A DNA stretch of 44,594 nt from contig MGIW01000002.1 in assembly GCA_001793945.1 (NCBI GenBank), positions 1 through 44,594 of the forward strand, read 5' to 3'. Below, one piece after another: positions 21,633-38,813 of the stretch (the first letter of the stretch is position 1; the number at the start of each line of letters is the position of its first letter). The position numbers and the translations under genes were made by a program. The notes under the pieces were generated by a model that was given only the letters and a program-made list of their open reading frames with translations, was not told where the DNA came from and did no database searches. This DNA comes from Candidatus Wolfebacteria bacterium RIFOXYD12_FULL_48_21. GTDB taxonomy: Bacteria; Patescibacteriota; Minisyncoccia; UBA6257; UBA9933.

Positions 21633-21634
21633 AA

Positions 21635-21741: not shown

Positions 21742-21744
21742 ATC

Positions 21745-22581
21745 ATGAAGAAATATTCACCAACAACTCCATCGCGACGCCACATGACAGTGGTCGACTA
21801 TAGCGTACTGACCAAGATCGAGCCCATGAAGAGCGCGCTTATTCGGATTGCTCATCGTGCGGGTCGTAACAATCAGGGCCGCATCACGACCCGTCATCAG
21901 GGGGGAGGCGTTAAGCAGCTCTACCGCATGGTGGATTTCAAGCAGAACAAGATCGACATCCCGGCACGCATCGAGGCCATCGAATATGATCCGTACCGCT
22001 CCGCTTTTATCGCGCGTGCGCTTTACAAGGACGGCGAAAGACGGTATATTTTGGCTGGCAAGGACATGAAGGAAGGAGATGAGATCATCACGGCGGAAAG
22101 CGCGATCGTAAAGAACGGCAACCGCTCGAAGCTCAAGAACATCCCGACCAGCTATATGGTCTACAATATAGAGTTACAGCCAGGCAAGGGAGGTCAAATG
22201 GCAAAATCTGCCGGCTCCTATGCGCAGGTGTTGGCTCACGAAGGAAAGTACACCAGCCTCAAGCTGCCGTCCGGTGAGGTCCGCAAGGTCTTGACCGAAG
22301 GATATGCAACCATGGGTCAGGTTTCGAACCACGAGCACAACCTGGTAAATATAGGAAAGGCGGGTCGTTCCCGACACTTGGGTATTCGCCCTACCGTTCG
22401 CGGTAAGGCAATGAACCCGTGCGACCACCCACACGGAGGAGGTGAAGGAAGCCAGCCGCGTGGAACGAAGCGATTGAAGACCGCATGGGGCAAGATCGCA
22501 GGAGGTCACAAGACACGCAATAAGAAGAAGCGTTCGACAAGCTTGATCATCAAGCGACGGGTATCGGTTCGCAACAAATAA
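21745..22581 (+). CDS. rplB: Ribosomal protein uL2
   Basis: 278 residues, normal length; needed for subunit joining and peptidyl transfer. RNA-binding motifs GRITTRHQGGGVKQLYR and the C-terminal PCDHPHGGGEGSQPRG are present, with the functionally important His in DHPHGGGEG. The usual NPVDHPH is NPCDHPH here, a conservative change. No Shine-Dalgarno site; an A element abuts the start codon. Confidence 0.98.
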   Translation: MKKYSPTTPSRRHMTVVDYSVLTKIEPMKSALIRIAHRAGRNNQGRITTRHQGGGVKQLYRMVDFKQNKIDIPARIEAIEYDPYRSAFIARALYKDGERRYILAGKDMKEGDEIITAESAIVKNGNRSKLKNIPTSYMVYNIELQPGKGGQMAKSAGSYAQVLAHEGKYTSLKLPSGEVRKVLTEGYATMGQVSNHEHNLVNIGKAGRSRHLGIRPTVRGKAMNPCDHPHGGGEGSQPRGTKRLKTAWGKIAGGHKTRNKKKRSTSLIIKRRVSVRNK

Positions 22582-22583
22582 GC

Positions 22584-22611
22584 AATCTTAAATCTTAAAT
22601 CATAAATCTAA
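22584..22611 (+). repeat. Short heptamer array (rplB-rpsS)
   Basis: AATCTTA, AATCTTA, AATCATA, AATCTAA, then TCATGG with the rpsS start. It takes the place that a B element would have in the alternating pattern. Confidence 0.8.
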
Positions 22612-22613
22612 TC

Positions 22614-22910
22614 ATGGCACGATCAGCAAAAAAAGGTCCATACGTAGACGAAAAACTCATGAAAAAGGTGACTGCTTTGGCGCACGACGACAAGACCGTC
22701 ATCAAAACATGGGCGCGTAGTTCCGAGATCGCGCCGGACATGATAGGTCGCATATTCGGAGTACACAATGGAAAGGACTTCATTCAGGTGCGCGTGACCG
22801 AAGAAATGGTAGGTCATCGCTTGGGAGAGTTTTCCCCGACCAAGAAGTTCATCAGACACGGTGGTAAGTTGGCCAAGGAAGCGGACCGCAAGGCAGCACA
22901 GAAAAAATAA
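22614..22910 (+). CDS. rpsS: Ribosomal protein uS19
   Basis: 98 residues. MARSAKKGPYVDEKLMKKV, then WARSSEIAPDMIGRIFGVHNGKDFIQVRVTEEMVGHRLGEFSPTKKF are typical S19, which contacts S13 and the head of the 30S subunit. Preceded by a short heptamer array, no Shine-Dalgarno site. Confidence 0.97.
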   Translation: MARSAKKGPYVDEKLMKKVTALAHDDKTVIKTWARSSEIAPDMIGRIFGVHNGKDFIQVRVTEEMVGHRLGEFSPTKKFIRHGGKLAKEADRKAAQKK

Positions 22911-22912
22911 AA

Positions 22913-23019
22913 GAGTGATCGCCAATAATGCAAATCTTACGCAAATAATGCAAATAGAAATGCATAGAAGGATCAAATTCGCATTATTAAATTTTAAATT
23001 CGCATTATTCGCGAATACT
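22913..23019 (+). repeat. A element 4 (rpsS-rplV)
   Basis: Full-length copy, GAGTGATCGCC to GCGAATACT, 3 nt before the rplV ATG. Confidence 0.88.
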
Positions 23020-23022
23020 ATC

Positions 23023-23568
23023 ATGAAACAGCAAACAGCAAAATTGAATCATCTCCGAATGGCTCCGCGAAAGGCGCGTTTGATGGCAACCGTCATCAAG
23101 GGATTGTCGGTCAATGACGCGCAAGCGCAGTTGGCGGTCAACCCGAAGCGTGCAAGCGAGCCGGTGTTGAAGTTGTTGCAGTCGGCGATCGCAAATGCGG
23201 TCAACAATGCAAAAATGGATATCACCAAGCTCGTCGTCAAGGAGATCAGGGTAGATGGCGGACCGATGCTGAAGCGCTGGTTGCCGCGGGCCCAAGGACG
23301 CGCAACGCCAATCCAAAAGAAAAGCAGCCACATCACGATCGTGCTCGAAGAGTCCGAAACGGTAAAGGCTCCGCGATTCACGATGGCAAAGAAGGCGGAA
23401 AGAATCACAAAGGTAAAGGCGGAAAAGGTAAAGAAAGCAGCCGCAAAGAAGGTTACATCGACCGAAAAGACCGAAGAGAAAAAGGTGAAGGCCGAAAAGA
23501 CCGAGAAAACAACCAAGGTCGCAAAGGAAGGAACGAAGCGTAAGCTGTTTCAGAGGAAATCTATTTAA
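23023..23568 (+). CDS. rplV: Ribosomal protein uL22 with Lys-rich tail
   Basis: 181 residues against about 110 in E. coli. Residues 1-115 are the L22 fold (MAPRKARLMATVIKGLSV ... LKRWLPRAQGRATPIQKKSSHITIVL), including the tunnel hairpin. The remaining 65 residues are a Lys/Glu/Thr-rich low-complexity tail (KAEKVKKAAAKKVTS and similar), common in this radiation. The start is ATG 23023; an upstream in-frame start would translate the A element. rpsC follows after 5 bp. Confidence 0.95.
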   Translation: MKQQTAKLNHLRMAPRKARLMATVIKGLSVNDAQAQLAVNPKRASEPVLKLLQSAIANAVNNAKMDITKLVVKEIRVDGGPMLKRWLPRAQGRATPIQKKSSHITIVLEESETVKAPRFTMAKKAERITKVKAEKVKKAAAKKVTSTEKTEEKKVKAEKTEKTTKVAKEGTKRKLFQRKSI

Positions 23569-23573
23569 TTACT

Positions 23574-24335
23574 ATGGGTCATAAGATAAAACCAACTGCA
23601 TTTAGGGTAGGCGTGATCAAAGACTGGACTGCTCGCTGGTTCCCGAAAAAGACCAATTTCAAGGAATACTTGGAAGAGGATGTGCTGATCCGCAAGATCA
23701 TCGCAGACAAGATCGGAGCCGCAGGCATTGACTATGTCGCAATCGAGCGCTTTGGCGATTCGATTCGTATTCATATCAGGGCTGCAAAGCCGGGATTGAT
23801 CATTGGCCGCGGAGGAAAGGGAATCGAAGACCTCTCGAAATTGCTTGATAAGAAGGTAGCTGCTATCCGCACAAAGAACGGAAGCAAGAAGCTTACCGGT
23901 ATCAGCATGAACATCGAGGAGTTGAAGCGATTCGATGTATCCGCAGCGGTTACGGGCTATAACATCGCCCGCGATCTGGAACGACGCATGCCGTTCCGCC
24001 GCATCCTGAAAAAGACACTCGAGAGTCTGATGCAGACCCGGGAGGTCAAGGGAGCAAAGATTCGCGTTTCGGGCCGGTTGAACGGCGCCGAAATCGCGCG
24101 CACTGAACAGCTTGCAAAGGGAACCATCCCGTTGCAGACCATTCGCGCCGATATCGATTATGCGGAAGCGACCGCTTACACGACCTACGGAACCATTGGT
24201 GTAAAGGTTTGGATCAACAAGGGTGAAGTATTTAAGGAAAAGGAAAAGGAGCCGGTAAAACGACCGCAGGGAATCCTGAGTTCGTCAAGCGGGCGCCCGA
24301 GCCAATCCGAGAACCGCCCACAGCGAAGAAACTAA
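23574..24335 (+). CDS. rpsC: Ribosomal protein uS3
   Basis: 253 residues; lines the mRNA entry channel. The N-terminal GHKIKPTAFRVGVIKDW, the KH domain GLIIGRGGKGIEDLSKLL, and the C-terminal ADIDYAEATAYTTYGTIGVKVWI are clear. It ends in a low-complexity tail (SSSSGRPSQSENRPQRRN). Only 5 bp separate it from rplV, one of the few gaps without a hairpin element. Confidence 0.98.
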   Translation: MGHKIKPTAFRVGVIKDWTARWFPKKTNFKEYLEEDVLIRKIIADKIGAAGIDYVAIERFGDSIRIHIRAAKPGLIIGRGGKGIEDLSKLLDKKVAAIRTKNGSKKLTGISMNIEELKRFDVSAAVTGYNIARDLERRMPFRRILKKTLESLMQTREVKGAKIRVSGRLNGAEIARTEQLAKGTIPLQTIRADIDYAEATAYTTYGTIGVKVWINKGEVFKEKEKEPVKRPQGILSSSSGRPSQSENRPQRRN

Positions 24336-24438
24336 CAAATAACCAACGACAGATAACTAATAACTAATGACAAAATACGGTCAAAACCTATGAGCACAAG
24401 CATTCTGTTATAGGTTATAAGTTATAGGTTATAAGTTA
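24332..24438 (+). repeat. B element 2 (rpsC-rplP)
   Basis: Left heptamers AACAAAT, AACCAAC, GACAGAT, AACTAAT, AACTAAT, GACAAAA; right heptamers GTTATAG, GTTATAA, GTTATAG, GTTATAA, GTTAAAA. Confidence 0.85.
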
Positions 24439-24443
24439 AAATT

Positions 24444-24854
24444 ATGCTTATCCCGAAAAAAGTAAAACACAGGAAGTGGCACAAAGGCAGGAGCCGAACC
24501 CGTACCGTGGAAACACGCGGGTTGGGCCTCGCATTTGGCTCGTTCGGCATCCAGGCACTCGAAAGCGTTTGGTTGAACTCGCGCCAGATCGAAGCCGCCC
24601 GAAAATCCATTACACACTTCACCAAGCGTGGAGGAAAGATCTGGATCAGGGTATTCCCGGACAAGCCGGTCACCAAGATGCCGCCTGAGGTTACCCTCGG
24701 TGGAGGTAAGGGTAATGTGGATCACTATGTGTTCCCCGTAAAACCAGGCAGAATGTTGTTCGAGATTGATGGAGTAAAGGAGGACGTCGCACGCGAGGCA
24801 TTTCGCCGAGCAGGACATAAATTACCAGTTAAAACAAGAGTTGTTATTAAGTAA
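24444..24854 (+). CDS. rplP: Ribosomal protein uL16
   Basis: 136 residues. MLIPKKVKHRKWHKGR, FGSFGIQALE, and RVFPDKPVTKMPPEVTLGGGKGNVDHYVFPVKPGRMLFE are diagnostic for L16, which orders the A-site region of 23S rRNA. Its TAA stop falls inside the first bases of A element 5. No Shine-Dalgarno site. Confidence 0.97.
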   Translation: MLIPKKVKHRKWHKGRSRTRTVETRGLGLAFGSFGIQALESVWLNSRQIEAARKSITHFTKRGGKIWIRVFPDKPVTKMPPEVTLGGGKGNVDHYVFPVKPGRMLFEIDGVKEDVAREAFRRAGHKLPVKTRVVIK

Positions 24855-24953
24855 TCACTAATAATGCAAATCTAAAGCAAATAATGCTAATAGAAATGCA
24901 TTTATGGATTTATTCGCATTATTAAACCAAAATTCGCATTATTCGCGAGTACT
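24851..24953 (+). repeat. A element 5 (rplP-rpmC)
   Basis: Variant copy ending GCGAGTACT, 2 nt before the rpmC ATG; overlaps the rplP stop. Confidence 0.85.
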
Positions 24954-24955
24954 CT

Positions 24956-25165
24956 ATGAAAAAGCAGGATATCCAACAATTAAAGAGCAAATCGAAAGCC
25001 GAAATGCAGAAGGAACTGAGCGAAAGCCAGACCAAATTGCGGGACTTGAAGTTTGACCTTGCAGCTGGTAAAGTAAAGAACGTTTCTGAGATAAAAAAGC
25101 TCAAAAAGGTCGTTGCACGGTTGTCCACGCTGATCACCGGGAAAAAAGAGGCAGAAGTTAACTAA
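24956..25165 (+). CDS. rpmC: Ribosomal protein uL29
   Basis: 69 residues, two helices: IQQLKSKSKAEMQKELSESQTKLRDLKFDLAAGKVKNVSEIKKLKKVVARL. The L.DLKFDLAAGKVKN segment is typical of L29, which sits beside L23 at the tunnel exit. Flanked by an A element and a B element. Confidence 0.93.
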   Translation: MKKQDIQQLKSKSKAEMQKELSESQTKLRDLKFDLAAGKVKNVSEIKKLKKVVARLSTLITGKKEAEVN

Positions 25166-25255
25166 TAACTGATAACTGATGACTAATGACAAAATACGGC
25201 TCATCGTAAGAGAAGGCGTATCCTGTTAAAAGTTAAAAGTCAGAAGTTATAAGTC
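25160..25255 (+). repeat. B element 3 (rpmC-rpsQ)
   Basis: Left AACTAAT, AACTGAT, AACTGAT, GACTAAT, GACAAAA; right GTTAAAA, GTTAAAA, GTCAGAA, GTTATAA, GTCATTT. GAC units on the left have GTC units on the right. Confidence 0.85.
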
Positions 25256-25262
25256 ATTTATT

Positions 25263-25496
25263 ATGGCAGCACGAAAATTACAGGGAACGGTTGTTTCCGA
25301 TAAAATGGATAAGACACGAGTGGTAGCGGTTTCACGCCTTGCAAAGCACCCGATCTATCAGAAAATGTACAAGGTCACTGCGCGCTTCAAGGCGCACGAT
25401 GAGCAGAACGAGTACAAGATGGGCGATGTCGTGATCATCGAAGAGACCAGGCCGGTAAGCCGCGATAAGCGCTTCCGTATCGTCGGAAAGATCTAA
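25263..25496 (+). CDS. rpsQ: Ribosomal protein uS17
   Basis: 77 residues. [40 protein letters not shown] and [19 protein letters not shown] are the S17 OB-fold strands; it binds 16S rRNA early in 30S assembly. No Shine-Dalgarno site. Confidence 0.96.
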
Positions 25497-25497
25497 A

Positions 25498-25601
25498 GAG
25501 TTATCGCCAATAATGCAAATCTTACGCAAATAATGCTAATAAGAAATGCAGGGGAAGTGATTCGCATTATTAAATATTAATTCGCATTATTCGCGAATAC
25601 T
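25498..25601 (+). repeat. A element 6 (rpsQ-rplN)
   Basis: GAGTTATCGCCAATAATGC to GCGAATACT, 4 nt before the rplN ATG. Confidence 0.88.
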
Positions 25602-25605
25602 ACGT

Positions 25606-25974
25606 ATGATACAAGAACGATCAATTTTAAAAGTGGCTGACAACTCTGGAGCGAAGACTATTCGTTGTTTTCGCATCTTGGGAGGAACCCGACGACGGTA
25701 TGCGCGCATTGGCGACATTTTTGTCGCATCGGTGCAGACTGCTGAGCCGCGCAAAGCGGTAAAGAAGAAAGATGTCGTAAAGGCGGTCGTTGTGCGACAG
25801 CGCAAGGCGATGAAACGGGCCGATGGTTCGTACATCCGATTTGACGAAAACGCGGCGGTCATCCTGAATGCAAAAATGGAACCGAACGCGACTCGTATCT
25901 TCGGACCGATCCCACGCGAATTAAAGGAAAAGGGATTTGAGAAAATCGTTACGATGGCGGAAGATATCGTTTGA
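25606..25974 (+). CDS. rplN: Ribosomal protein uL14
   Basis: 122 residues, exactly the usual length. [27 protein letters not shown] and the C-terminal [27 protein letters not shown] are diagnostic. L14 forms bridges to the 30S subunit and is the docking site of RsfS. Confidence 0.98.
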
Positions 25975-26073
25975 ACTAACCAATAACTATTAACTATTAA
26001 CCAATAACAAAATACAACTCGAACGCACCTGAGCGTGCATCCCGTTAAAAGTTATAAGTTATAAGTTATAGGT
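25975..26073 (+). repeat. B element 4 (rplN-rplX)
   Basis: Left AACTATT, AACTATT, AACCAAT, AACAAAA; right GTTAAAA, GTTATAA, GTTATAA, GTTATAG. The loop holds its own small hairpin GCACCTGAGCGTGC. Confidence 0.85.
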
Positions 26074-26081
26074 CAAAAAAT

Positions 26082-26390
26082 ATGCGTATTAAAAAAGGTG
26101 ATACAGTAAAAATAATACAGGGCAAAGAGAAGGGAAAGACCGGAAAAGTGTTGAGCACCATGCCGCAGAAAGAACGGATTCTTGTCGAAGGGCTTAATTT
26201 GTATAAGAAGAATGTCAAGCCGAAGAAGCAGGGTGAAAAAGGGCAGATAGTCACAATTCCCCGCTCGATGAATGCTTCGAATGTCATGTTGGTTTGTCCG
26301 GCATGCGGAAAGGCAACGCGCATTGGCGCAATGGTCGAGAACGATAAAAAGGTTCGCTCCTGCAAGAAGTGCGGAGCACGCATCAGCTAA
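26082..26390 (+). CDS. rplX: Ribosomal protein uL24, zinc-ribbon form
   Basis: 102 residues. The KOW motif is at the N-terminus (IKKGDTVKIIQGKEKGKTGKVL). The C-terminal part has two Cys pairs (Cys72/Cys75 in CPAC and Cys94/Cys97 in CKKC), the zinc-binding form of L24. It is an assembly initiator of the 50S subunit. The gap to rplE is 30 bp and holds only an inverted CGTAC / GTACG pair. Confidence 0.96.
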   Translation: MRIKKGDTVKIIQGKEKGKTGKVLSTMPQKERILVEGLNLYKKNVKPKKQGEKGQIVTIPRSMNASNVMLVCPACGKATRIGAMVENDKKVRSCKKCGARIS

Positions 26391-26413
26391 CGTACGGCGT
26401 CACATAATGTACG
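26391..26413 (+). repeat. Small inverted repeat (rplX-rplE)
   Basis: CGTAC (26391) pairs with GTACG (26409) around GGCGTCACATAAT. Confidence 0.5.
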
Positions 26414-26420
26414 ATTGATT

Positions 26421-26981
26421 ATGAAAGATCTCAGCTTAAAAGAAAAATACATAAAGGAGGTTGTTCCTGCATTAAAGGCCAAGTTCGGGCACAAGAACGA
26501 AATGGCGACACCGAAGATCCAAAAGATCGTCGTAAATGTAGGCACCGGACGCATGAGCCAACAGGCGAATTTTACCGATAAGCTGTTGCCTGCGGTAGTG
26601 AACGAATTGATGGCAATCACCGGTCAAAAGCCGAGGACTAACCCGTCAAAGAAATCCATCGCAGGATTCAAGATGCGACAGGGAACCGTGGTGGGCGTTT
26701 CAGTAACGCTTCGCGGCGAGCGCATGTACGCGTTTTTGGACAAGATGAACAAAATCGTTTTCCCGCGTGTTCGCGATTTCAAGGGATTGGAGACCAAGGG
26801 CATCGACGGAGTGGGCAACCTCTCCATCGGATTCCGGGAACATACCGTATTCCCTGAGATCTCTCCGGAAAACGCAAAGGCCGACTTCGGGGTACAGGTC
26901 ACGGTCGTTGCTCGTACAAATTCACGGGACGAGGCGGTCGAATTGTATCGATTGCTGGGCGTACCGCTGAAGAAGGACTAA
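26421..26981 (+). CDS. rplE: Ribosomal protein uL5
   Basis: 186 residues; binds 5S rRNA and contacts P-site tRNA. ATPKIQKIVVNVGTGRMSQ, ITGQKPRTNPSKKSIAGFKMRQG, VTLRGERMYAFLDK and FPEI are typical L5. The start is ATG 26421; a TTG two codons upstream is less likely. Spacing to rpsN is 22 bp without a repeat element. Confidence 0.97.
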   Translation: MKDLSLKEKYIKEVVPALKAKFGHKNEMATPKIQKIVVNVGTGRMSQQANFTDKLLPAVVNELMAITGQKPRTNPSKKSIAGFKMRQGTVVGVSVTLRGERMYAFLDKMNKIVFPRVRDFKGLETKGIDGVGNLSIGFREHTVFPEISPENAKADFGVQVTVVARTNSRDEAVELYRLLGVPLKKD

Positions 26982-27003
26982 GGCGTATTATTACTAAACT
27001 ATC

Positions 27004-27189
27004 ATGGCTAAAAAATCAGTTGTCGTAAGATCACAAAAAGAACCGAAGTATCCGTCCCGTGCAACAAACCGGTGTTTTAAGTGCGGACGCGGTCGTGCAT
27101 ATATGCGCGATTTCGGTCTTTGCAGGATCTGTTTCAGGGAAATGGCATCAAAGGGCGAGATCCCGGGAATAAAGAAGGCATCGTGGTAA
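27004..27189 (+). CDS. rpsN: Ribosomal protein uS14, zinc-binding type Z
   Basis: 61 residues, the short form with four zinc ligands Cys24, Cys27, Cys40 and Cys43 ([22 protein letters not shown]). The C-terminus ..[11 protein letters not shown] is standard. The family acts in the head of the 30S subunit. Use of the zinc form, like zinc-form L24, implies a zinc demand that the ABC transporter might serve. Confidence 0.97.
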
Positions 27190-27288
27190 AATAACTGATG
27201 ACTGATGACAAATAACTAATAACAAAAAGAAAGGGCGAGTAAATAAAAATACAGTCCGTTAGAAGTTAAAGGTTATGAGTTAATTGTT
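27188..27288 (+). repeat. B element 5 (rpsN-rpsH)
   Basis: Left AACTGAT, GACTGAT, GACAAAT, AACTAAT, AACAAAA; right GTTAGAA, GTTAAAG, GTTATGA, GTTAATT, GTTAAAT. Confidence 0.83.
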
Positions 27289-27294
27289 AAATAT

Positions 27295-27675
27295 ATGTAT
27301 ATCGATCTATTAACACAAATTAAAAACGCCCAGGCCGTAAAGAAGGAATCGATCAAGGTGCCGTACACAAAGAACGACGAGCGCATTTTAGAGATTCTTA
27401 CGAGCAGAAAGTATATTGCTGCGTACGACAAGAAGGGTAGGACCCCAAAGCGCGTATTGAGCATAGACCTCAAGTATAACGACGGACAGGGAGCCATTGA
27501 AGGAGTTCGCTTTGTGAGCCGTCCGAGTATCCATATCTACAAGGGATGCGACGAGATCAGGCCGGTAAAGAGCGGCCGCGGTATGGCTATCGTGTCGACC
27601 CCGAAGGGGATCATGACCGGCGAGCAGGCGCGCAAGGAAAAGGTGGGAGGTGAGATCTTTTTCGAAATCTGGTAA
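27295..27675 (+). CDS. rpsH: Ribosomal protein uS8
   Basis: 126 residues. The C-terminal core RPSIHIYKGCDEIRPVKSGRGMAIVSTPKGIMTGEQARKEKVGGEI is diagnostic. S8 binds central-domain 16S rRNA and, in E. coli, represses the spc operon. A GC-rich 80-bp gap without A or B element follows (27676-27755). Confidence 0.97.
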   Translation: MYIDLLTQIKNAQAVKKESIKVPYTKNDERILEILTSRKYIAAYDKKGRTPKRVLSIDLKYNDGQGAIEGVRFVSRPSIHIYKGCDEIRPVKSGRGMAIVSTPKGIMTGEQARKEKVGGEIFFEIW

Positions 27676-27755
27676 ACGATACTAACGGGTGGACGGGGCG
27701 GCCGATGGCGGATCAAACATCCGAAATGGGTACCCGGTAACCAATATAAATAATT

Positions 27756-28319
27756 ATGTCAAAAGTTGGAAAAAAACCGATAATCATTCCTGAAGGCGTA
27801 ACCGTTATATTTGACGGAGCTGCTTTGGAATTGAAGAAGGGGGAGAACATCGTAAAAATGGTCGTACTTCAGTTCGTAAAGACCGAAATAGGAGATGTGG
27901 CCGATGCCGATGGTGTCATGAAAAACGCGATTACATTTACGATCGACAGCAACACCAAACAGGCGAAATCGAACTGGGGAACCATGCGTGCGCTTACCGC
28001 GAACGCGATCCAGGGCGTTTTGGGAGGTTTTACAAAAGTATTGGAGATCGAGGGGGTCGGCTATCGCGCTGCGATGGACGGCGAGAATCTGGTCCTCAAC
28101 ATCGGTTTTTCCCATCCGGTAAAATATGAACCGCGCAAGGGCATCAAGTTGTCCGTCGAAAAGAACGCCGTCACCGTGACGGGCATCGACAAGGCAATGG
28201 TCGGACAGACTGCCGCAGAGATCAGAAAGGTTAGAAAGCCGGAGCCGTACAAGGGCAAAGGTATCCGATACCGTGGAGAAGTTGTACGACGCAAGCAAGG
28301 AAAGAAGGTTGGTAAATAA
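27756..28319 (+). CDS. rplF: Ribosomal protein uL6
   Basis: 187 residues. MSKVGKKPIIIPEGV at the start and the C-terminal VGQTAAEIRKVRKPEPYKGKGIRYRGEVVRRKQGKKVGK are typical; L6 supports the elongation-factor site. A short insertion near residues 25-50 is slightly longer than in E. coli. No Shine-Dalgarno site. Confidence 0.97.
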   Translation: MSKVGKKPIIIPEGVTVIFDGAALELKKGENIVKMVVLQFVKTEIGDVADADGVMKNAITFTIDSNTKQAKSNWGTMRALTANAIQGVLGGFTKVLEIEGVGYRAAMDGENLVLNIGFSHPVKYEPRKGIKLSVEKNAVTVTGIDKAMVGQTAAEIRKVRKPEPYKGKGIRYRGEVVRRKQGKKVGK

Positions 28320-28320
28320 A

Positions 28321-28425
28321 GAGCTGTCGCTAATAATGCAAATCTAAAGCAAATAATGCTAATGGGAATGCACCTATGGATTAATTCGCATTATTAAATA
28401 TTAATTCGCATTATTCGCGAATACT
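28321..28425 (+). repeat. A element 7 (rplF-rplR)
   Basis: GAGCTGTCGCTAATAATGC to GCGAATACT, 4 nt before the rplR ATG. Confidence 0.87.
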
Positions 28426-31311: not shown

Positions 31312-31374
31312 GGTATACGGTATAGAGTATAGGGTATAGGGTATAAAGTATACGGTATAGAGTATAAGGTAGAG
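31312..31374 (+). repeat. Tandem 7-mer array after secY
   Basis: Nine heptamers in a row of the type GGTATAG (GGTATAC, GGTATAG, AGTATAG, GGTATAG, GGTATAA, AGTATAC, GGTATAG, AGTATAA, GGTAGAG). It is the reverse complement of the TATACCG array before groES. Confidence 0.88.
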
Positions 31375-31378
31375 GAGT

Positions 31379-31503: not shown

Positions 31504-31561
31504 TTTCCCTATGTAAATTACCATCCAAATATACCCCCAATGCGCGTCAACTCGGCAGGTC

Positions 31562-31589
31562 TTGACAAATCCTACAAATCATGTATAAT
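31562..31589 (+). promoter_or_regulatory. Promoter of cassette gene 1
   Basis: TTGACA, 16 nt, TATAAT (31584-31589) with an extended TG. Followed by the leader ACAAGGCCTTTCAC shared by the cassettes. Confidence 0.88.
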
Positions 31590-31656
31590 ATAAACATACA
31601 GTAAAAACAAGGCCTTTCACAAATAAATAACGCCGCAACACGGCAAGGAGAACACC

Positions 31657-32106
31657 ATGGTAAAGATCATCGGCCCGTTTCAGATCAACACCGCTGGCAA
31701 CCGCACGACTGAAGATGTTGTCGCAGCTGGCAATTATAGCTGGGCATCTGAAATAGTGAACGGGGTGAACTTCCCGATGCGCCCCATGCCCGAAGGGCTC
31801 CGCGAGATTGTTATCCTCGAGTTCGACCACCTCCCCACGCAGGATCAGATGTTGAGGGTAGTATCGGGGCAGGACTTGGATTTTCCCCGACATGAAGACG
31901 CGCTGTTCTTTGGCGAGCAGTATCCCGATGAACAGTGTAATGGCTCGATTGTATTCTTGCATGAGCCGTGGAAATGTTTGGGTGACGGTTCGTTTGTGCT
32001 GGTGCTCCAATGCGACAGCGCAGATAAGAAGCGCGGACTGGGATTGACCACAGTTGGTCTTATCGGAACGCGCAATCGACGCTTCGCCTTCGTCTGTAAA
32101 TCGTAA
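31657..32106 (+). CDS. Cassette protein 1 (unknown family)
   Basis: 149 residues, no signal peptide or membrane segment. It is one of four paralogues in this island. The family has a constant first part (NRTTEDVVAAGNYSW ... VNGVNFPMRPMPEG ... REIVILEFD ... EDALFFGEQYPDEQ ... IVFLHEPW), a variable stretch of 25-35 residues, and a constant end (RRFAFVCKS). Similar multi-copy proteins occur, as I recall, in other genomes of this radiation; no function is known to me. The gene has its own promoter, an AAGGAG site 6 nt before the ATG with a GCCG/CGGC hairpin just upstream, a hairpin overlapping the stop, and a terminator. Confidence 0.8.
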   Translation: MVKIIGPFQINTAGNRTTEDVVAAGNYSWASEIVNGVNFPMRPMPEGLREIVILEFDHLPTQDQMLRVVSGQDLDFPRHEDALFFGEQYPDEQCNGSIVFLHEPWKCLGDGSFVLVLQCDSADKKRGLGLTTVGLIGTRNRRFAFVCKS

Positions 32107-32122
32107 CCTACCTTGGTAGGTT
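32105..32122 (+). promoter_or_regulatory. Stop-codon hairpin of cassette 1
   Basis: AACCTACCTTGGTAGGTT, 8-bp stem, starts inside the TAA stop. Identical in cassette 4 and one base different in cassette 2. Confidence 0.7.
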
Positions 32123-32126
32123 GCAC

Positions 32127-32150
32127 GCCCCGCACATGCGGGGCTTTTTT
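32127..32150 (+). terminator. Terminator of cassette 1
   Basis: GCCCCGCACATGCGGGGC then TTTTTT. Confidence 0.9.
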
Positions 32151-32156
32151 ACGGCA

Positions 32157-32188
32157 TTGTCATTCCGGCGGAAGCCGGAATCCAGACC
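32157..32188. repeat. Palindromic repeat
   Basis: GTCATTCCGGCGGAAGCCGG followed by AATCCAGA. Confidence 0.7.
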
Positions 32189-32247
32189 CTCCCCCATGTG
32201 AAGCGCCATCCAAATACGCCATAAATGAGCGTTAGATTGCCAGGGTC

Positions 32248-32275
32248 TTGACAAATCCTGCAAATCATGTATAAT
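32248..32275 (+). promoter_or_regulatory. Promoter of cassette gene 2
   Basis: TTGACA, 16 nt, TATAAT (32270-32275); spacer nearly identical to cassette 1. Confidence 0.88.
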
Positions 32276-32342
32276 ATATACATACAGTAAAAACAAGGCC
32301 TTTCACAAATAAATAACACCGAGAAACGGCAAGGAGAACATC

Positions 32343-32774
32343 ATGGAAGCAAAAATTGTAGGATCGTTCCGGATTAACACCGCTGGCAACCGCACGACTG
32401 AAGAGGTCGTCGCCGCCGGCAACTACGACTGGACAAATGACAGGGTCAACGGGGAGAATTTCCCGATGCGGCCGATGCCCGAAGGGCCTCGTAAGATTGT
32501 GTATCTTGAATTTGAGGTTAATCCATATTTAGAGGAAAAAGTGCTTGTGGAAGCACAGCGTCAAGGGCTTGAGCGTCCTCTATACGAAGATGTACTGTTT
32601 TTTGGGGAGCAGTATCCCGAGGAGCAGCGTAAAGGGCCAATCGCATTTTTGCACGAACCATGGCATGGTTGGCGCGTGGGGCTTGGTCGCGATAAAGCGG
32701 GTCGCGGTCTGGGCCTGAACTACTTTGGCGGAATTTACCGCCGCCGATGCCGTTTCGCCTTCATTCTCCCGTAA
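32343..32774 (+). CDS. Cassette protein 2 (unknown family)
   Basis: 143 residues. The same architecture as cassette protein 1: INTAGNRTTEEVVAAGNYDW, NFPMRPMPEGPRKIV, RPLYEDVLFFGEQYPEEQ, FLHEPW, then a short basic variable segment (HGWRVGLGRDKAGRGLGLN) and the constant end CRFAFILP. It shares its leader, promoter and AAGGAG site with cassette 1, and its DNA flank upstream is also alike, which points to tandem duplication of a whole unit rather than of the coding part only. Function unknown. Confidence 0.8.
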   Translation: MEAKIVGSFRINTAGNRTTEEVVAAGNYDWTNDRVNGENFPMRPMPEGPRKIVYLEFEVNPYLEEKVLVEAQRQGLERPLYEDVLFFGEQYPEEQRKGPIAFLHEPWHGWRVGLGRDKAGRGLGLNYFGGIYRRRCRFAFILP

Positions 32775-32790
32775 CCTACCTCGGTAGGTT
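32773..32790 (+). promoter_or_regulatory. Stop-codon hairpin of cassette 2
   Basis: AACCTACCTCGGTAGGTT, overlapping the TAA stop. Confidence 0.7.
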
Positions 32791-32795
32791 GCACA

Positions 32796-32824
32796 CCCCC
32801 TCGCTATGCGAGGGGGCTTTTTTT
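32796..32824 (+). terminator. Terminator of cassette 2
   Basis: CCCCCTCGC / GCGAGGGGG around TAT, then CTTTTTTT. Nearly the same sequence terminates cassette 4. Confidence 0.9.
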
Positions 32825-32852
32825 GTCACGAACATAAAAAACTTGCTATACT
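32823..32852 (+). promoter_or_regulatory. Duplicated adk promoter driving the NlpC/P60 gene
   Basis: TTGTCA, 18 nt, TATACT with extended TGC; same sequence as the adk promoter at 38083-38112 apart from single bases. Confidence 0.75.
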
Positions 32853-32857
32853 AAAAC

Positions 32858-32899
32858 ATGTCTAAAACGAACATAGATCGCATGGCATATGGAAAATAA
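32858..32899 (+). pseudogene. Fragment of adk: promoter-proximal codons 1-10
   Basis: ATG TCT AAA ACG AAC ATA GAT CGC ATG GC matches the start of adk at 38118 base for base, then diverges and stops after 13 codons (MSKTNIDRMAYGK). It overlaps the start of the NlpC/P60 gene and may now act as a short leader reading frame. Confidence 0.75.
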
Positions 32900-35759
32900 A
32901 GTTGGCATTAAAAAGATGTTTTATATATTGGCAGTAAATGTATTTGCCCTGTCGGCGATGTTTATTGCTACGGATATCGCCCACGCGTTCGATTTTCAGG
33001 CGGACGACACAAGCAGGCAGGAAGATGCCTGTCTGAGTACTCCAGTGCAAATTGTTGGCGCTATTACGCCGGGGGACTTTGAACGATTTAGGGTCAAGGC
33101 AAGTACAGGGAATTCACAATTGATCATTCAGGAATATTCCGCGCCACCGGTTAGTTGGTGGGAATATGCTACAAATCAATGGGTTTCGGATAAACAGGCC
33201 ACAATTACCGAGGGCATATGGGAGTGGAGTGTTGAAGACTTTTCGTCGCCAGTTACATTTCAAGCAGACAGGTACTACATGTTTGCATTTTACCAAGGGA
33301 ATATTTGTGGGTTCAAAGGAACGAATACTACAATTGAAGGGATGCAATTTTATCGCCAGGGAGGAACTAGTGACTGGGTGCGGGATAATAGTATAGATAA
33401 TATTTGGTTTGAGATAAATGATGGGGGGCGATATTGGTCGACAATCAGCACTGTGCCGGAGGGTGTTTTGAATATACGGGAGAGTGCAGGCTTGAACGCA
33501 TTGATCATAAAAACATTGCCAATCGGGTGGGTGGTAAGGGTGTTGCAGACAGCTGATATAAGTAGGATGCCAATCGATGTTGACGGTCATCGCTGGTATC
33601 AAATACAGGATGTGTCCGATGGTTCTACGGGGTGGGCAGTCGCTGGCCCGGTCCAAGATGGACATCTTATGGCAGAATATCTGCCGTATGACTTCACAAA
33701 GCAGGCCGATCTTGAACAGGAGACAATCCGGCAGGTAAGTGTGGAAGATCGGCATATTTGTCCGATTGCTGACGGGCAATATATCGACGGACTCAATTTG
33801 AGGGTCTTTCTTGCCACAATTCCGGCGGGAGTATATGACACCATATATGTTAAGGCAGATTATGTGGCATATATATATCCATATGTCACCAAGATATACA
33901 CGAAAGACGGGTGGCAGTCGGTTGCGATGCAGATATCTACCGATAGAGGGAATACATGGAGTAATGTGAGTATGCCGTCAGGGTATCTTAGTGATGTGGA
34001 TGTACGGTTTTTACTTCCTCGTGCGTATATTTTTGACGGATCCGATATATATTTTCAAAACGACTGGGGCGACAATTCTCGCGGGATTTTTATAAGAACA
34101 TCGGAGGTATGTTCTTCATTATCCGAGCGCGTAACAGCCATTACATCGATGCAACAATTTGCGGCCGACGGTACAACGCTTATTGGCGAACATGCCACGA
34201 CCACAGACTCTACTGTTGTATTTAAAGCGGTCGTAGACGCGTCTGGTGCCGAGCCGGCTACCGTGCAGGTGGAGCTACGCCGTACGGAAGAGCCGTTTAC
34301 GGGGATTAGCGATGGGGGAATTCTTCAATCCGACTTGGTTGCGCCAGGTACGCAAGTTGCGCTTACCCGTACAAACCTCATTGATGGCGCGTATCATTGG
34401 CGCGCCCGAACCCTTAATGATCAAGGCAACTCTTCGGATTGGCAGGAGTTCGGCATTCCCGGCGGTACTGATTTTATTGTAGATTTGCCATTATCATACA
34501 AAGCTGCCAATTTGGCGAAGCAGTTGGTGAATCAGAATTATTTATGGGGTGGAAAAGGTTGGGACGCAAATGATCGCTTGTTTGTGGATACGGACACAGT
34601 AAAAACAGGATACAATTATTGGACTGACGCAGGAAAGATTGCGTTTGACGATGGCCTTGATTGTTCTGGTCTTGTGGCGTGGTCATATAACCATTCTTAT
34701 GCTCCCAGCAAATTTTTTAATCAAAATTATATTGGAGAGCCGAATGCGAATAAGCAGTATTGGCATAATATGCAAGCGACAACGACATCAGATGTTGGAT
34801 TACAACCGGGAGATTTATTGTATTTTGATCCAAGGACATATCATGTAGACACTAAAACGTGGACACTTGGCTCTGATGGAATAATGGATCATGTTGCAAT
34901 GTATATTGGGGGCGATACTAGTAAAAATGTCATACATGCAAGATCTAAAACATTCGGGATTCAATATGCAAGCATCAACGCCCTTTTAGGTGACAGTGCA
35001 AACGGCTTCGTTGCATTTGGTCGCCCTAAAAATGCCACCATCGCCATGTCAATTACAAAACATTCCCCAATACATTTTTCCGTTATCGATCCAGATGGCA
35101 ATACGATTTCTGATAGTACTGGTATTGCAACAGATGAAGAATACATACAGGAATCTGGCGACCTCACCTATGCTACCATGGGTATGGATGCCAACGGATA
35201 TCCGGAAGATGTGATATATTCCCCCATACTTAAACAAGGCATATACAAAATCAGTGTATCCCCGATGGCAAGCAGCACTTCAAATCAAACATATTCACTC
35301 GACTTTACTGCGGGGAGTACTACAATAGTTCTTGCCCAGAATATGCCATTAAGCCAGATCCCCTCTGAAGGTTACGGCATCACAGTATCAGCAGTTGGGG
35401 CTATAAGTACTTTTATTCCAGTATCGGTTGATATTAAGCCGGGTAGTTATCCAAACAGTATTAATCTCGGTTCAAACGGTGTAATACCGGTCGCAATATT
35501 CGGCTCAGCAACTTTTGATGTGCATCAAATTGATCCTACGACAATCAAACTCGCCGATGCATCGATAAAAATAAAAGGCAACGGGCAGCCGATGGTAAGT
35601 TATTCCGATGTAAACGGAGATGGGATTACTGACGCAATCGTCCAAATAACAACCCAAGCCTTACAGCTAACAATAGGAGATACGATGACGAATCTGGAAG
35701 GGAGCTTGATAAGCGGAGACATATTTAAGGGCTCAGATTCAATCAATATCGTACCATAA
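32889..35759 (+). CDS. Secreted multidomain NlpC/P60 protein
   Basis: 956 residues. A signal peptide (1-33, cleavage near AHA-FDF) sends it out of the cell. In order: an N-terminal beta domain, an SH3b-like domain (about 180-260, VLNIRESAGLNALIIKTLPIGW), a middle beta region, an NlpC/P60 cysteine peptidase (about 535-710) with Cys592 (LDCSGLVAWS), His668 (DHVAMYIG) and His683, and from about 847 a DIKPGSYPNSINLGSNGVIPVAI domain with an EF-hand-like DVNGDGITD. It should cut peptidoglycan peptides or related bonds. Its promoter and leader are a copy of those of adk. AT-richer than neighbours, which suggests transfer. Start ATG 32889 overlaps an adk fragment. Confidence 0.85.
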   Translation: MENKVGIKKMFYILAVNVFALSAMFIATDIAHAFDFQADDTSRQEDACLSTPVQIVGAITPGDFERFRVKASTGNSQLIIQEYSAPPVSWWEYATNQWVSDKQATITEGIWEWSVEDFSSPVTFQADRYYMFAFYQGNICGFKGTNTTIEGMQFYRQGGTSDWVRDNSIDNIWFEINDGGRYWSTISTVPEGVLNIRESAGLNALIIKTLPIGWVVRVLQTADISRMPIDVDGHRWYQIQDVSDGSTGWAVAGPVQDGHLMAEYLPYDFTKQADLEQETIRQVSVEDRHICPIADGQYIDGLNLRVFLATIPAGVYDTIYVKADYVAYIYPYVTKIYTKDGWQSVAMQISTDRGNTWSNVSMPSGYLSDVDVRFLLPRAYIFDGSDIYFQNDWGDNSRGIFIRTSEVCSSLSERVTAITSMQQFAADGTTLIGEHATTTDSTVVFKAVVDASGAEPATVQVELRRTEEPFTGISDGGILQSDLVAPGTQVALTRTNLIDGAYHWRARTLNDQGNSSDWQEFGIPGGTDFIVDLPLSYKAANLAKQLVNQNYLWGGKGWDANDRLFVDTDTVKTGYNYWTDAGKIAFDDGLDCSGLVAWSYNHSYAPSKFFNQNYIGEPNANKQYWHNMQATTTSDVGLQPGDLLYFDPRTYHVDTKTWTLGSDGIMDHVAMYIGGDTSKNVIHARSKTFGIQYASINALLGDSANGFVAFGRPKNATIAMSITKHSPIHFSVIDPDGNTISDSTGIATDEEYIQESGDLTYATMGMDANGYPEDVIYSPILKQGIYKISVSPMASSTSNQTYSLDFTAGSTTIVLAQNMPLSQIPSEGYGITVSAVGAISTFIPVSVDIKPGSYPNSINLGSNGVIPVAIFGSATFDVHQIDPTTIKLADASIKIKGNGQPMVSYSDVNGDGITDAIVQITTQALQLTIGDTMTNLEGSLISGDIFKGSDSINIVP

Positions 35760-35772
35760 ACGGCATCATATT

Positions 35773-36345
35773 ATGACAAAAAAAATAATCATTGTATTGA
35801 TAGTAATAACGGCATTCGCATTGGCAGGTGCTATATATGGATATCGACATATACAGCGAAGTTTAATTAGAATTCAGCCTATCGGCGCAACCTCGACTCC
35901 GGTACAAACAACTAACGCAACGACTACGATTGCAACCACTACTCAAACGAATGACTATTCCGGCATGAAGCGTTACCGAAACGAGGAATGGGGTTTTGAG
36001 TTCTGGTATCCGGAAGGATGGGAGATGAAAGATAAAACAGGCAGTGCTCCTCAAAGTAGTTTGTATTTGAGTGTTAATTTTCTTAGCGATGATACGCTGA
36101 CGATGGATTCTTTCTCAATAAGCATCGTAACCCCGCAGTTTGCTGATTATGCGGCGCAAGGTGAACATAGCTCCCAAATAATAGTATCAGATATTATTGG
36201 TAGGACTTATCAATATACTCTTGAGGGGGTATCATCTATTACCGTAGATTTGCCCCTTCATGGAAAAAAAATGATAGTTTCTGCTCAAAAGCAACATGAA
36301 AAAGAGTTGTATAAGGTTCTTTCCTCATTCAAATTCCTCGAATGA
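35773..36345 (+). CDS. Membrane-anchored protein with PsbP-like domain
   Basis: 190 residues. One N-terminal membrane segment (about 4-24), a Thr-rich linker (ATSTPVQTTNATTTIATTTQT), then a beta domain beginning MKRYRNEEWGFEFWYPEGWEM, a pattern typical of PsbP/DUF1795-like domains often seen in envelope proteins of this radiation. No catalytic residues are evident. It starts 13 bp after the NlpC/P60 gene and is probably co-transcribed. Base composition is as AT-rich as that gene, so both may have arrived together. Confidence 0.6.
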   Translation: MTKKIIIVLIVITAFALAGAIYGYRHIQRSLIRIQPIGATSTPVQTTNATTTIATTTQTNDYSGMKRYRNEEWGFEFWYPEGWEMKDKTGSAPQSSLYLSVNFLSDDTLTMDSFSISIVTPQFADYAAQGEHSSQIIVSDIIGRTYQYTLEGVSSITVDLPLHGKKMIVSAQKQHEKELYKVLSSFKFLE

Positions 36346-36572
36346 ACACTCCGTTAAGCATCCACCTCAACAGCATCAACCTCGGATCAAATGGCGTCGT
36401 GCCAGTTGCGATCTTCGGCTCTGCAACTTTTGATGTGCATCAGATAGACTCAGCCACAATCAAACTTGCCAACGCCTCAGCAAAGCTCAAAGGCAATAGC
36501 CAACCTATAGCAAGTTATTTAGATGTGAATGGAGACGGGCATATCGACATCATTGTGCAAGTATCAACATAG
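36342..36572 (+). pseudogene. Partial copy of the C-terminal domain of the NlpC/P60 protein
   Basis: 76 codons from ATG 36342 read HLNSINLGSNGVVPVAIFGSATFDVHQIDSATIKL ... DVNGDGHIDIIVQVST (given here as parts), closely matching residues about 855-935 of the upstream protein, and stop short of its last 25. There is no signal peptide and the start overlaps the previous stop. It is a decayed duplicate of the domain, or the remains of a second large gene. Confidence 0.7.
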
Positions 36573-36643
36573 GCATTGCGACTAATCCAAGCTGATGGTC
36601 CGCGAATACGAATAATGCAAGAAACGTAGAAAAACGAAAAAAG

Positions 36644-36670
36644 AAAAGCCCTGCATTTGCAGGGCTTTTT
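36644..36670 (+). terminator. Intrinsic terminator
   Basis: AAAAGCCCTGC / GCAGGGCTTTT around ATTT. A short piece of A-type repeat (GCGAATACGAATAATGC) lies just upstream at 36602. Confidence 0.88.
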
Positions 36671-36678
36671 AGTTGAAT

Positions 36679-36708
36679 GTCATACCGGCGAAGGCCGGTA
36701 TCCAGAGT
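36679..36708. repeat. Palindromic repeat
   Basis: GTCATACCGGCGAAGGCCGG followed by TATCCAGAG. Confidence 0.7.
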
Positions 36709-36731
36709 CAAGTAACCCGAGCCTGTAGGTC

Positions 36732-36759
36732 TTGACAAATAGAATAAACAGTATATAAT
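36732..36759 (+). promoter_or_regulatory. Promoter of cassette gene 3
   Basis: TTGACA, 16 nt, TATAAT (36754-36759); the same spacing as the other cassettes, with a diverged spacer. Confidence 0.87.
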
Positions 36760-36811
36760 ATAAATATACAGTTTTAAACAAGACCTTTCACAACACTATA
36801 AGGAGAAAGTC

Positions 36812-37270
36812 ATGGAAAAGAAATCGTTTGTGATTGATGTTAACGGTAGGCGTCCCGGAAACCGCACGATTAAGGAAAAGATTGTCGCCATCGTCACCGG
36901 CCAGTACGGCCTGGGAGACACCCGCATCAACCGGAAAAATTTCCCAATGCGGCCCATGCCCGCGGGGCCGCGCAAGATCGTTCTCGTGGACTATGACCGA
37001 GCCATCAGCGCGGATGAAGTCCTCGCGGAAGCCGAGCGGCGGGGGCTGGAACGCCCTCGGCACGAGGATGCGTTGTTCTTCGGCGAACAGCATCCCGAAG
37101 AGCCGTGCAGAGCCCCAATCGTCTTCCTTCATGAGCCGTGGAGGGGAAGCGTATTGTTCCTCGGATACGGAGGGGGAAGCATGCGTAACTACAATGTGAA
37201 CATCTCTCTCAGCATTGATGAAGGTGCTAAATGGGGTGCTGGTTGTCGTTTCGCCTTCGTTCAAAAGTAA
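36812..37270 (+). CDS. Cassette protein 3 (unknown family)
   Basis: 152 residues, the most divergent of the four. It keeps NRTIKEKIVAIVTGQYG, NFPMRPMPAGPRKIVLVDYD, AEAERRGLERPRHEDALFFG, and IVFLHEPW, then has the longest variable part (RGSVLFLGYGGGSMRNYNVNIS) before the constant end CRFAFVQK. The leader is shortened (no GCCG/CGGC hairpin) but AAGGAG still lies 6 nt before the ATG. After the stop, AGTAAC / GTTACT replaces the usual hairpin. Function unknown. Confidence 0.78.
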   Translation: MEKKSFVIDVNGRRPGNRTIKEKIVAIVTGQYGLGDTRINRKNFPMRPMPAGPRKIVLVDYDRAISADEVLAEAERRGLERPRHEDALFFGEQHPEEPCRAPIVFLHEPWRGSVLFLGYGGGSMRNYNVNISLSIDEGAKWGAGCRFAFVQK

Positions 37271-37311
37271 CCCGATTCGCCATCCGGCGGACTAAGTTAC
37301 TGCGCTTTATC

Positions 37312-37339
37312 GGGGCACGCTTGCGTGCCCCATTTTTTT
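37312..37339 (+). terminator. Terminator of cassette 3
   Basis: GGGGCACGC / GCGTGCCCC around TT, then ATTTTTTT. Confidence 0.9.
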
Positions 37340-37377
37340 ATCACAAATCTTTGCACGCGGTGGGTATCAAATGTATT

Positions 37378-37443
37378 GTCACCCAGAACTTGGTTCAGGA
37401 TCTGAGTATAAAAATGCGGATCCTGAAACAAGTTCAGGATGAC
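37378..37443. repeat. Palindromic repeat (GTTCAGGAT type)
   Basis: GTCACCCAGAACTTGGTTCA ... AACAAGTTCAGGATGAC, with an inner GGATCTGAG ... CGGATCC. Confidence 0.65.
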
Positions 37444-37495
37444 ATAATGCGGAATCTGTAGTATTAGCGGCAAATAGAGAGCCTTTCTAAAGGGC

Positions 37496-37523
37496 TTGAC
37501 AAATACAACAAACAGTATATAAT
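37496..37523 (+). promoter_or_regulatory. Promoter of cassette gene 4
   Basis: TTGACA, 16 nt, TATAAT (37518-37523). Confidence 0.88.
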
Positions 37524-37591
37524 ATAAATATACAGTTAGAAACAAGGCCTTTTAAAATTATATAACGCCGCAAAACGACAAGGAGAACATC

Positions 37592-38035
37592 ATGGTAAAG
37601 ATCATCGGCCCGTTTCAGATCAACACCACCGGCACCCGCACGACTGAGGAGGTTTTCGCAGCTGGCAAGTATGATGGGAAGAATAACATGGTCAACGGGA
37701 AGAATTTCCCGATACGGACCATGTTTAAAGGGACTCGCGAGATTGTTCTCGTAGAGTTCGATCGCGACACAAGTTCCGAAGAAGTATTAGCGGAAGCGAA
37801 GCGCTGGGGGCTGAAACGCCCTCGGTGCGAGGATGCGCTGTTTTTCGGAGAGCAACATCCCGAGGAGCAATGCACTGCCCCAATCTTGTTTCTTCGTAAG
37901 CCCGCTTGGTGGCGCGCATGCGTCCGCCTGTTCGTGCTGGTGCTTCGCTGTGATGGCGGGAGGCGTACTCTGTGCTTAAACCCCTTTGACGGTGGTTGGC
38001 ATCAGCGGTGCCGGTTCGCGTTCGTCCGCCCGTAA
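37592..38035 (+). CDS. Cassette protein 4 (unknown family)
   Basis: 147 residues. Its first 14 residues are almost those of cassette protein 1 (MVKIIGPFQINTTG). Conserved: RTTEEVFAAGKYD, NFPIRTM, REIVLVEFD, EEVLAEAKRWGLKRP, EDALFFGEQHPEEQ; the FLHEPW motif is FLRKPAWW. The variable part is RACVRLFVLVLRCDGGRR and neighbours, ending CRFAFVRP. It sits directly before adk; its terminator overlaps the -35 of the adk promoter. Function unknown. Confidence 0.8.
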   Translation: MVKIIGPFQINTTGTRTTEEVFAAGKYDGKNNMVNGKNFPIRTMFKGTREIVLVEFDRDTSSEEVLAEAKRWGLKRPRCEDALFFGEQHPEEQCTAPILFLRKPAWWRACVRLFVLVLRCDGGRRTLCLNPFDGGWHQRCRFAFVRP

Positions 38036-38051
38036 CCTACCTTGGTAGGTT
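38034..38051 (+). promoter_or_regulatory. Stop-codon hairpin of cassette 4
   Basis: AACCTACCTTGGTAGGTT, overlapping the TAA stop. Confidence 0.7.
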
Positions 38052-38056
38052 GCACA

Positions 38057-38085
38057 CCCCCTCGCTATGCGAGGGGCTTTTTTTG
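38057..38085 (+). terminator. Terminator of cassette 4
   Basis: CCCCTCGC / GCGAGGGG then CTTTTTTT; the T run overlaps the -35 of adk. Confidence 0.9.
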
Positions 38086-38112
38086 TCATGAACATAAAAA
38101 ACTTGCTATACT
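38083..38112 (+). promoter_or_regulatory. Promoter of adk
   Basis: TTGTCA, 18 nt, TATACT with extended TGC; the ATG is 5 nt after the -10, so the mRNA is probably leaderless. Confidence 0.75.
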
Positions 38113-38117
38113 AAAAT

Positions 38118-38813
38118 ATGTCTAAAACGAACATAGATCGCATGGCCGTCGTATTCTATGGACCTCCCGGGTCCGGAAAGGGTACGCAGGCGCAACTGTT
38201 GGCAGATACGCTTCACTTGTTTCATTTCGATACCGGGAGTCTTTTGCGAAACATATTGAACGATCCGAAATACAAGGACGACGAAAACATCCATCGGGAG
38301 CGGGAATTGAACGAATCGGGAAAGCTGAACACGCCATCATGGGTGCTGGATGTGGTCACCAAGCAGGTCGATGACCTCGCAAAGCTCGGCCAGTCCATCG
38401 TATTCAGCGGTTCGCCGCGGAATGTATTTGAAGCCTTTGGCGAAGAAGGCCGCGTGGGCTTGCTCGATTTTTTGGTGGAAAAATACGGAAAGGAACATGT
38501 GCATATTTTTTACTTGCAAATACCCGACGAAACGACCGTCCAGCGCAACACGCACCGGACCATTTGTTCGGTATGCAAAAAGCCGTTGCTCGATATGGAA
38601 CACAAGCCGACTACCTGTCCGTTTTGCGGAGGAGCGGTGGAACACCGTGTTGACGACACCACGGAAGTCATCAAACAACGGTTAAAGGAATACCACGAAC
38701 GCACCGAGCCAGTCATTGCGGAATCGGTCAAACGGGGGTATAAAGTGATAAAGCTCGATGGCACGCCCGCTCCATACAAAATACACGAAGCAATCATGAC
38801 GCATTTTAAGTGA
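38118..38813 (+). CDS. adk: Adenylate kinase, zinc-lid form
   Basis: Converts ATP + AMP to 2 ADP. 231 residues. The P-loop GPPGSGKG is at 15-22 and the LID carries four Cys (150, 153, 167, 170 in CSVC ... CPFC), the zinc-binding form. The first 8 residues (MSKTNIDR) precede the Met9 where most adenylate kinases would start; translation from the first ATG fits the leaderless promoter, but Met9 remains possible. In most bacteria adk follows secY directly; here the cassette island lies between. Confidence 0.95.
   Translation: MSKTNIDRMAVVFYGPPGSGKGTQAQLLADTLHLFHFDTGSLLRNILNDPKYKDDENIHRERELNESGKLNTPSWVLDVVTKQVDDLAKLGQSIVFSGSPRNVFEAFGEEGRVGLLDFLVEKYGKEHVHIFYLQIPDETTVQRNTHRTICSVCKKPLLDMEHKPTTCPFCGGAVEHRVDDTTEVIKQRLKEYHERTEPVIAESVKRGYKVIKLDGTPAPYKIHEAIMTHFK

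Follow-up and report, generated by a model that had tools for sequence, protein, structure and literature searches.

Genes between secY and adk

The window analyzed here is the entire contig C2 (MGIW01000002.1, 44,594 nucleotides) of Candidatus Wolfebacteria bacterium RIFOXYD12_FULL_48_21 (G000), an 878.7-kb draft genome in six contigs. Our subject is a segment of about 3.7 kb that separates secY from adk in this contig, together with the truncated copies of gene ends on its two sides. The locus reads, entirely on the forward strand, secY, cassettes c1 and c2, a truncated adk start (adk'), an NlpC/P60 gene, a PsbP_2-like gene, a domain fragment, a copy of the secY end (secY'), cassettes c3 and c4, and adk. 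Both secY (PF00344; 30038-31300) and the final adk (231 amino acids; 38118-38813) are intact. The inserted segment (32887-36585) contains a predicted secreted NlpC/P60 protein of 956 amino acids (32889-35759), a PsbP_2-like protein of 190 amino acids (35773-36345) and a fragment (36343-36573) of a second copy of the C-terminal domain of the NlpC/P60 protein, which we take to be of the VDIKPGS type. It is bordered by the truncated adk start (adk') on the left and by the copied secY end (secY') on the right.

An earlier note on this DNA, made from the sequence alone, had described a nearly identical repeat of about 90 bp at the adk start. Alignment of the two stretches confirmed the repeat and showed it to be slightly longer, with 96.6% identity over 119 aligned positions between 32768-32886 and 38029-38146; a core of 74 nucleotides at 97% had already emerged from the initial repeat search. 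The left copy comprises a cassette terminator and the adk promoter, followed by the first nine codons of adk and two bases of the tenth, while the right copy runs into the intact adk. A 48-mer around the adk start matched at 47 of 48 positions at 32858, against 27/48 for the next best site in the window and 29/48 for the best of 100 dinucleotide shuffles. The promoter-like TTGTCA-18-TATACT and the terminator stem that the note had claimed for both copies were found in both; in the left one they lie at 32823-32852, with the ATG 5 nucleotides past the -10, and at 32796-32816 respectively. The shared stretch stops two bases into codon 10 and the copies diverge abruptly past GCATGGC. The left frame reads MSKTNIDRMAYGK and then stops, after the 13 codons originally reported (32858-32899, stop included), and the NlpC/P60 open reading frame (ORF) begins within this stub, at 32889, in a different frame.

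A second scar, which the note had not reported, was found on the other side of the insert, where the final 30 nucleotides of secY recur at 36586-36615 with 25 of 30 positions identical (best of 200 shuffles, 21/30). This copy is more diverged than that of adk (5/30 versus 4/119 differences, Fisher p=0.017), and its differences from secY are codon-wise mild changes, as if the two had diverged while secY' was still a working gene end.

The four cassettes, one pair on each side of the insert, had also escaped the note. They encode proteins of 149 (c1, 31657-32106), 143 (c2, 32343-32774), 152 (c3, 36812-37270) and 147 amino acids (c4, 37592-38035), belonging to a family without an assigned name; c1 has its own promoter and terminator. 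Cassette promoters are more alike than the coding regions (31557-32342, 36727-38035): c1 and c2 share 92% identity in the promoter and leader and 60% in the coding sequence, and between the two pairs the coding regions differ by 37-50%. Of 244 genomes of the order, 51 contain the family, which gave no Pfam match, nor any NCBIfam match for the two cassettes tried. A palindromic repeat of the GTCATACCGGCGGAGGCCGGTATCCAG type occurs near the cassettes and after adk (31419, 32153, 36673 and 38872), a short tandem repeat of the GTATACGGTATA type follows secY (31313-31375) and is longer in the nearest relative described below, and upstream of secY a dispersed AT-rich repeat of about 110 nucleotides spans 19706-28425, with seven copies listed and matches in both orientations.

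The empty site in related genomes

A search for adk in 61 genomes, the present one included, returned matches in 55; three of the 61 are other members of the same genus (G001, G002 and G003). The nearest relative, Candidatus Wolfebacteria RIFOXYB1_FULL_54_12 (G003), shares about 95% identity with the window in the vicinity of secY and beyond adk. Its gene order is secY, a probable insertion sequence, one cassette and adk, with neither insert nor adk'; G001 and G002 carry other small ORFs between secY and adk. The inserted segment has no counterpart at this place in any of the three same-genus genomes. These arrangements indicate that the secY-adk interval is variable and, for the nearest relative, support the ancestral order secY, cassette, adk proposed in the note, G003 being, at this site, a relative with one cassette and no peptidase such as the note had suggested looking for. 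The proposed scar of an insertion also holds. A dispersed repeat, the alternative that the note had named, was rejected for the adk unit: the nearly full 118-bp unit is present twice in G000 and once in G003, and all other matches are shorter pieces of 25-62 bp. The probable insertion sequence of G003 (L036:8741-9757, between secY and the cassette) was read as such from a long ORF and inverted ends; it may also be bordered by a target duplication of 5 bp.

The inserted module

The NlpC/P60 match of the 956-residue protein scored 26.8 bits against a cut-off of 23, and an SH3_3 match fell below its cut-off. The N-terminus appears signal-like by eye, and C592, H668 and H683, whose motif positions were located in the sequence, are presumably the catalytic residues. 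The domain fragment repeats the C-terminal domain of the peptidase, with 72% identity between 36369-36585 and 35454-35670. No solved structure matched the peptidase at E<=0.01, and Rfam matches for known RNAs were all under the gathering scores. A viral origin was considered and set aside, as searches with the peptidase and with the cassette alignment found no relative in viral_contigs. The peptidase was matched in 4 of 22 genomes of the family, its own included; in one of them (G005) the homologue contains a single internal stop; behind it comes a PsbP_2-like ORF that scores under the cut-off, and nearby lie genes resembling polysaccharide genes, as judged from their translations.

No integrase or transposase was recognized among the ORFs of the insert, and no inverted repeat pair was found at its boundaries at a minimum length of 20, a setting that shorter pairs could escape. 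The repeats flanking the insert are gene ends and not short target duplications of the transposon type.

Copied gene ends elsewhere in the genus

A truncated relative of the module was found in the sister species G003 just upstream of ychF (identified by eye), a position at which neither G000 nor G001 carries such an insert. It consists of the C-terminal part of the peptidase, a PsbP_2-like protein below the Pfam cut-off and a domain fragment, and it carries the same signature: the ychF promoter region and first nine codons are present twice (49/51), 3.5 kb apart, flanking the module. Related, though not identical, elements sit at unrelated repeats, the adk start in G000 and the ychF start in G003.

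A scan of 340,151 bases of G000 (39% of the genome) yielded four loci with a gene end copied around accessory genes, namely adk, a gene of 501 amino acids on C3, a histidine-kinase end on C5, and C5:98395. The start of the 501-residue gene, with its promoter and about 28 codons, occurs in six copies within 10 kb (L079:6819-17210); five of these are truncated and have a TTGACA-like motif close behind. In whole-genome searches this start occurred six times in G000, twice in G003, once in G002 and not at all in G001; local BLAST added a second, weaker copy in G002. The 3' end of the histidine kinase occurs in five copies among accessory genes (L073:4342-13671), ending at or just past the stop codon, and the gene end of the fourth locus, on C5 and 58 bp long, flanks a DUF6922/AbiEii pair and is also present in G003.

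Two loci were counted in 340,000 bases of G003, one row in 360,000 of G002 (copies 300 bp apart, 90.4%) and none in 320,000 of G015 and G042 combined. These counts were assigned by hand on partial samples and small numbers and represent a lead, not a rate. The 26 rows from G000 were reduced to four loci by dropping the dispersed intergenic repeat of the window (20405, 28379), the ends of neighbouring paralogues (C5:10232/11094), an opposite-strand ORF over the kinase end (C5:7786), ORFs over the array of the 501-residue gene (17179, 6417 and 6743 on C3) and a paralogous cassette pair (C3:16670). The six rows of G003 were reduced to ychF and C3:70305, three repeat rows on C2 being dropped. The scan missed the pairs of 501-residue gene starts in G003, outside the sample, and in G002, under the 90% cut. 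Among the other genes surveyed, ComEC is present in all four genomes of the genus, and PF00589 gave one match each in G000 (C3:154585), G001 and G003 and two in G002. A separate observation on C5 of G000 is a LAGLIDADG_3 gene (L002:2071-2910), whose end overlaps the apparent start of lepA, named by eye.

Polarity of the copies

Between the cassette stop and codon 10 the two adk copies differ at four places, one of them a G-run; G003 matches the truncated copy at all four, so that the start of the intact adk looks like the newcomer. At ychF in G003, the sequence just before the truncated copy matches G000, and the one before the intact copy resembles G001; for the 501-residue gene in G003, the truncated copy has the same upstream region as the intact gene of G002. 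At each of the three genes the truncated copy on the left appears to be the resident one and the intact start on the right the new arrival. A plain duplication would not be expected to give such a regularity and fits less well. Along the intact adk, the first 360 nucleotides are 87-92% identical to G003 and the next 270 are 93-96% identical.

Possible expression of the peptidase

Expression of the peptidase from the copied adk promoter is plausible. Five bases separate the end of the -10 from the stub ATG, and adk is preceded by a similarly spaced -10 in the three other genomes of the genus, which makes a leaderless transcript plausible; since the peptidase ORF, starting at 32889, overlaps the stub frame (end 32899) by 11 bases, termination-reinitiation between the two is possible. 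The note had proposed that the peptidase would share the "growth-linked" promoter of adk, a sharing that we infer from sequence. A second promoter-like site lies inside the peptidase gene (32902-32929).

Origin of the insert

The explanation that we favor, at a rough probability of 0.58, is that foreign DNA entered by one-sided integration, recombining by homology at one flank and being joined illegitimately at the other; the left copy would be the resident one and the right copy would have come with the insert. The donor fragment, from a related lineage, would have contained the peptidase module and, behind it, the tail of a secY gene, two cassettes and an adk start of its own; it might have entered by natural transformation. 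Its right side would have recombined with the resident adk by homology, at a crossover somewhere within the gene, and its left end would have been attached within the resident adk, just past codon 9, with no homology involved. The outcome would be a single intact adk with the start of the newcomer, the resident promoter and start being left as the stub adk' directly before the ATG of the peptidase. The stub promoter could then transcribe the peptidase, whose start codon lies in the 13-codon stub frame.

In favor of this explanation are the vacant site in the three same-genus genomes, the truncated module with its own start repeat at ychF in G003, the polarity at three genes, the greater divergence of secY', the lower identity to G003 in the first part of adk, the lack of an integrase or transposase among the ORFs of the insert and the presence of ComEC in all four genomes. 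Several points weigh against it. No clean crossover is visible, as identity to G003 drops back to 88% in the final 66 nucleotides of adk and ychF of G003 is about 91% identical to G000 over its whole length. In codons 6-9, adk' is like adk and unlike G003, a pattern not expected from a resident stub by itself. The four polarized sites are few (1/16 under equal chance), the junction between module and secY' requires a further illegitimate step, perhaps in the donor, and no donor genome was found.

A local tandem duplication of about 1.6 kb could have run from the secY tail as far as adk codon 10, the module entering at the duplication junction or while that junction formed, for instance by template switching. 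It would produce exactly the order adk', module, secY', that is a duplication junction with filler, and the cassettes do come as two pairs. Copies of the same age should diverge alike, whereas we found 4/119 for adk', 5/30 for secY' and 37-50% for cassette coding regions between the pairs; the mild codon changes of secY' resemble those of a gene end diverging while in use, and at 4 of 4 sites G003 has the state of the truncated adk copy. We regard this course as unlikely. Of the "duplication or insertion" offered in the note, the insertion scar stands, and a simple local duplication is less well supported by copy polarity and by the unequal divergence of secY' and adk'.

The same repeats would be generated by a single crossover of a circle, either a linear fragment closed illegitimately (adk codon 10 to the peptidase start) or a circle excised between direct repeats. 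According to the passages concerned in PMC3240628, an E. coli experiment most often gave a duplication of part of the homologous gene by this route (56/60 clones). The polarity at three genes would then have to come from the position of the crossover, and neither circle nor donor was seen. We consider this route rather improbable.

Islands that integrate at gene ends by means of tyrosine recombinases have direct repeats of the gene end flanking the insert, and such repeats are typical attachment sites. The present locus resembles them in its gene-end repeats, and the six occurrences of the 501-residue gene start in G000 would suit a gene end used as an attachment site by a recombinase. It differs in that no recombinase occurs among the ORFs of the insert, the single PF00589 match of G000 lying on C3, and in that there is no fixed repeat, related modules using unrelated ones at adk and ychF; site-specific integration is thus very improbable. 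An assembly artefact from mixed strains, conceivable for a six-contig draft with several repeats at the locus, is just as improbable, since no long shared word joins the parts at either junction, the ORF starting at the left junction is intact and the same kind of structure occurs in the separate genome G003.

Comparison with known systems and meaning

One-sided integration has a known counterpart in the homology-facilitated illegitimate recombination described, in the passages concerned in PMC3240628, for natural transformation of S. pneumoniae, A. baylyi and P. stutzeri. There, too, one end is homologous, the other is illegitimate and foreign DNA is added; unlike the scar at gene ends in an uncultured genus, the cases in those passages are experimental and the product carries a deletion. 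Partial duplication after a single crossover is a further route named there. In the type VI secretion arrays of Vibrio cholerae, as portrayed in parts of PMC5361080, effector modules are inserted sequentially, a conserved stretch serves as the anchor and displaced remnants accumulate; the remnants in those parts are immunity genes and effector ends, whereas here the remnant is the promoter-bearing start of an essential gene. The transformation-induced merodiploids of S. pneumoniae, in the sections of PMC3784515 on this subject, likewise show DNA uptake yielding a partial duplication, but as tandem duplications of about 100-900 kb, whereas the foreign insert here has repeats of about 50-160 bp on its two sides.

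For Patescibacteria, parts of a 2025 study of 125 genomes (PMC12455944) describe genomic islands and suggest competence as one route; the term "direct repeat" is absent from its main text. Literature searches, which took in listings and passages only, returned nothing on gene-end stubs in these bacteria.

A more speculative extension, which we put forward tentatively, is that this genus gains genes at gene ends without integrases: homology would provide the anchor, the resident stub would express the newcomer and the essential gene would be rebuilt from the donor, while stubs would seed later events, so that arrays grow, as the six copies of the 501-residue gene start may illustrate. Gene uptake by the streamlined, mostly uncultured Patescibacteria is poorly known, and a readable, polarized scar, with the old start on the left and the new one on the right, would allow acquisitions to be counted and oriented in any such genome. 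The locus also illustrates how foreign DNA can settle beside an essential gene without disabling it and, in the same step, acquire a promoter.

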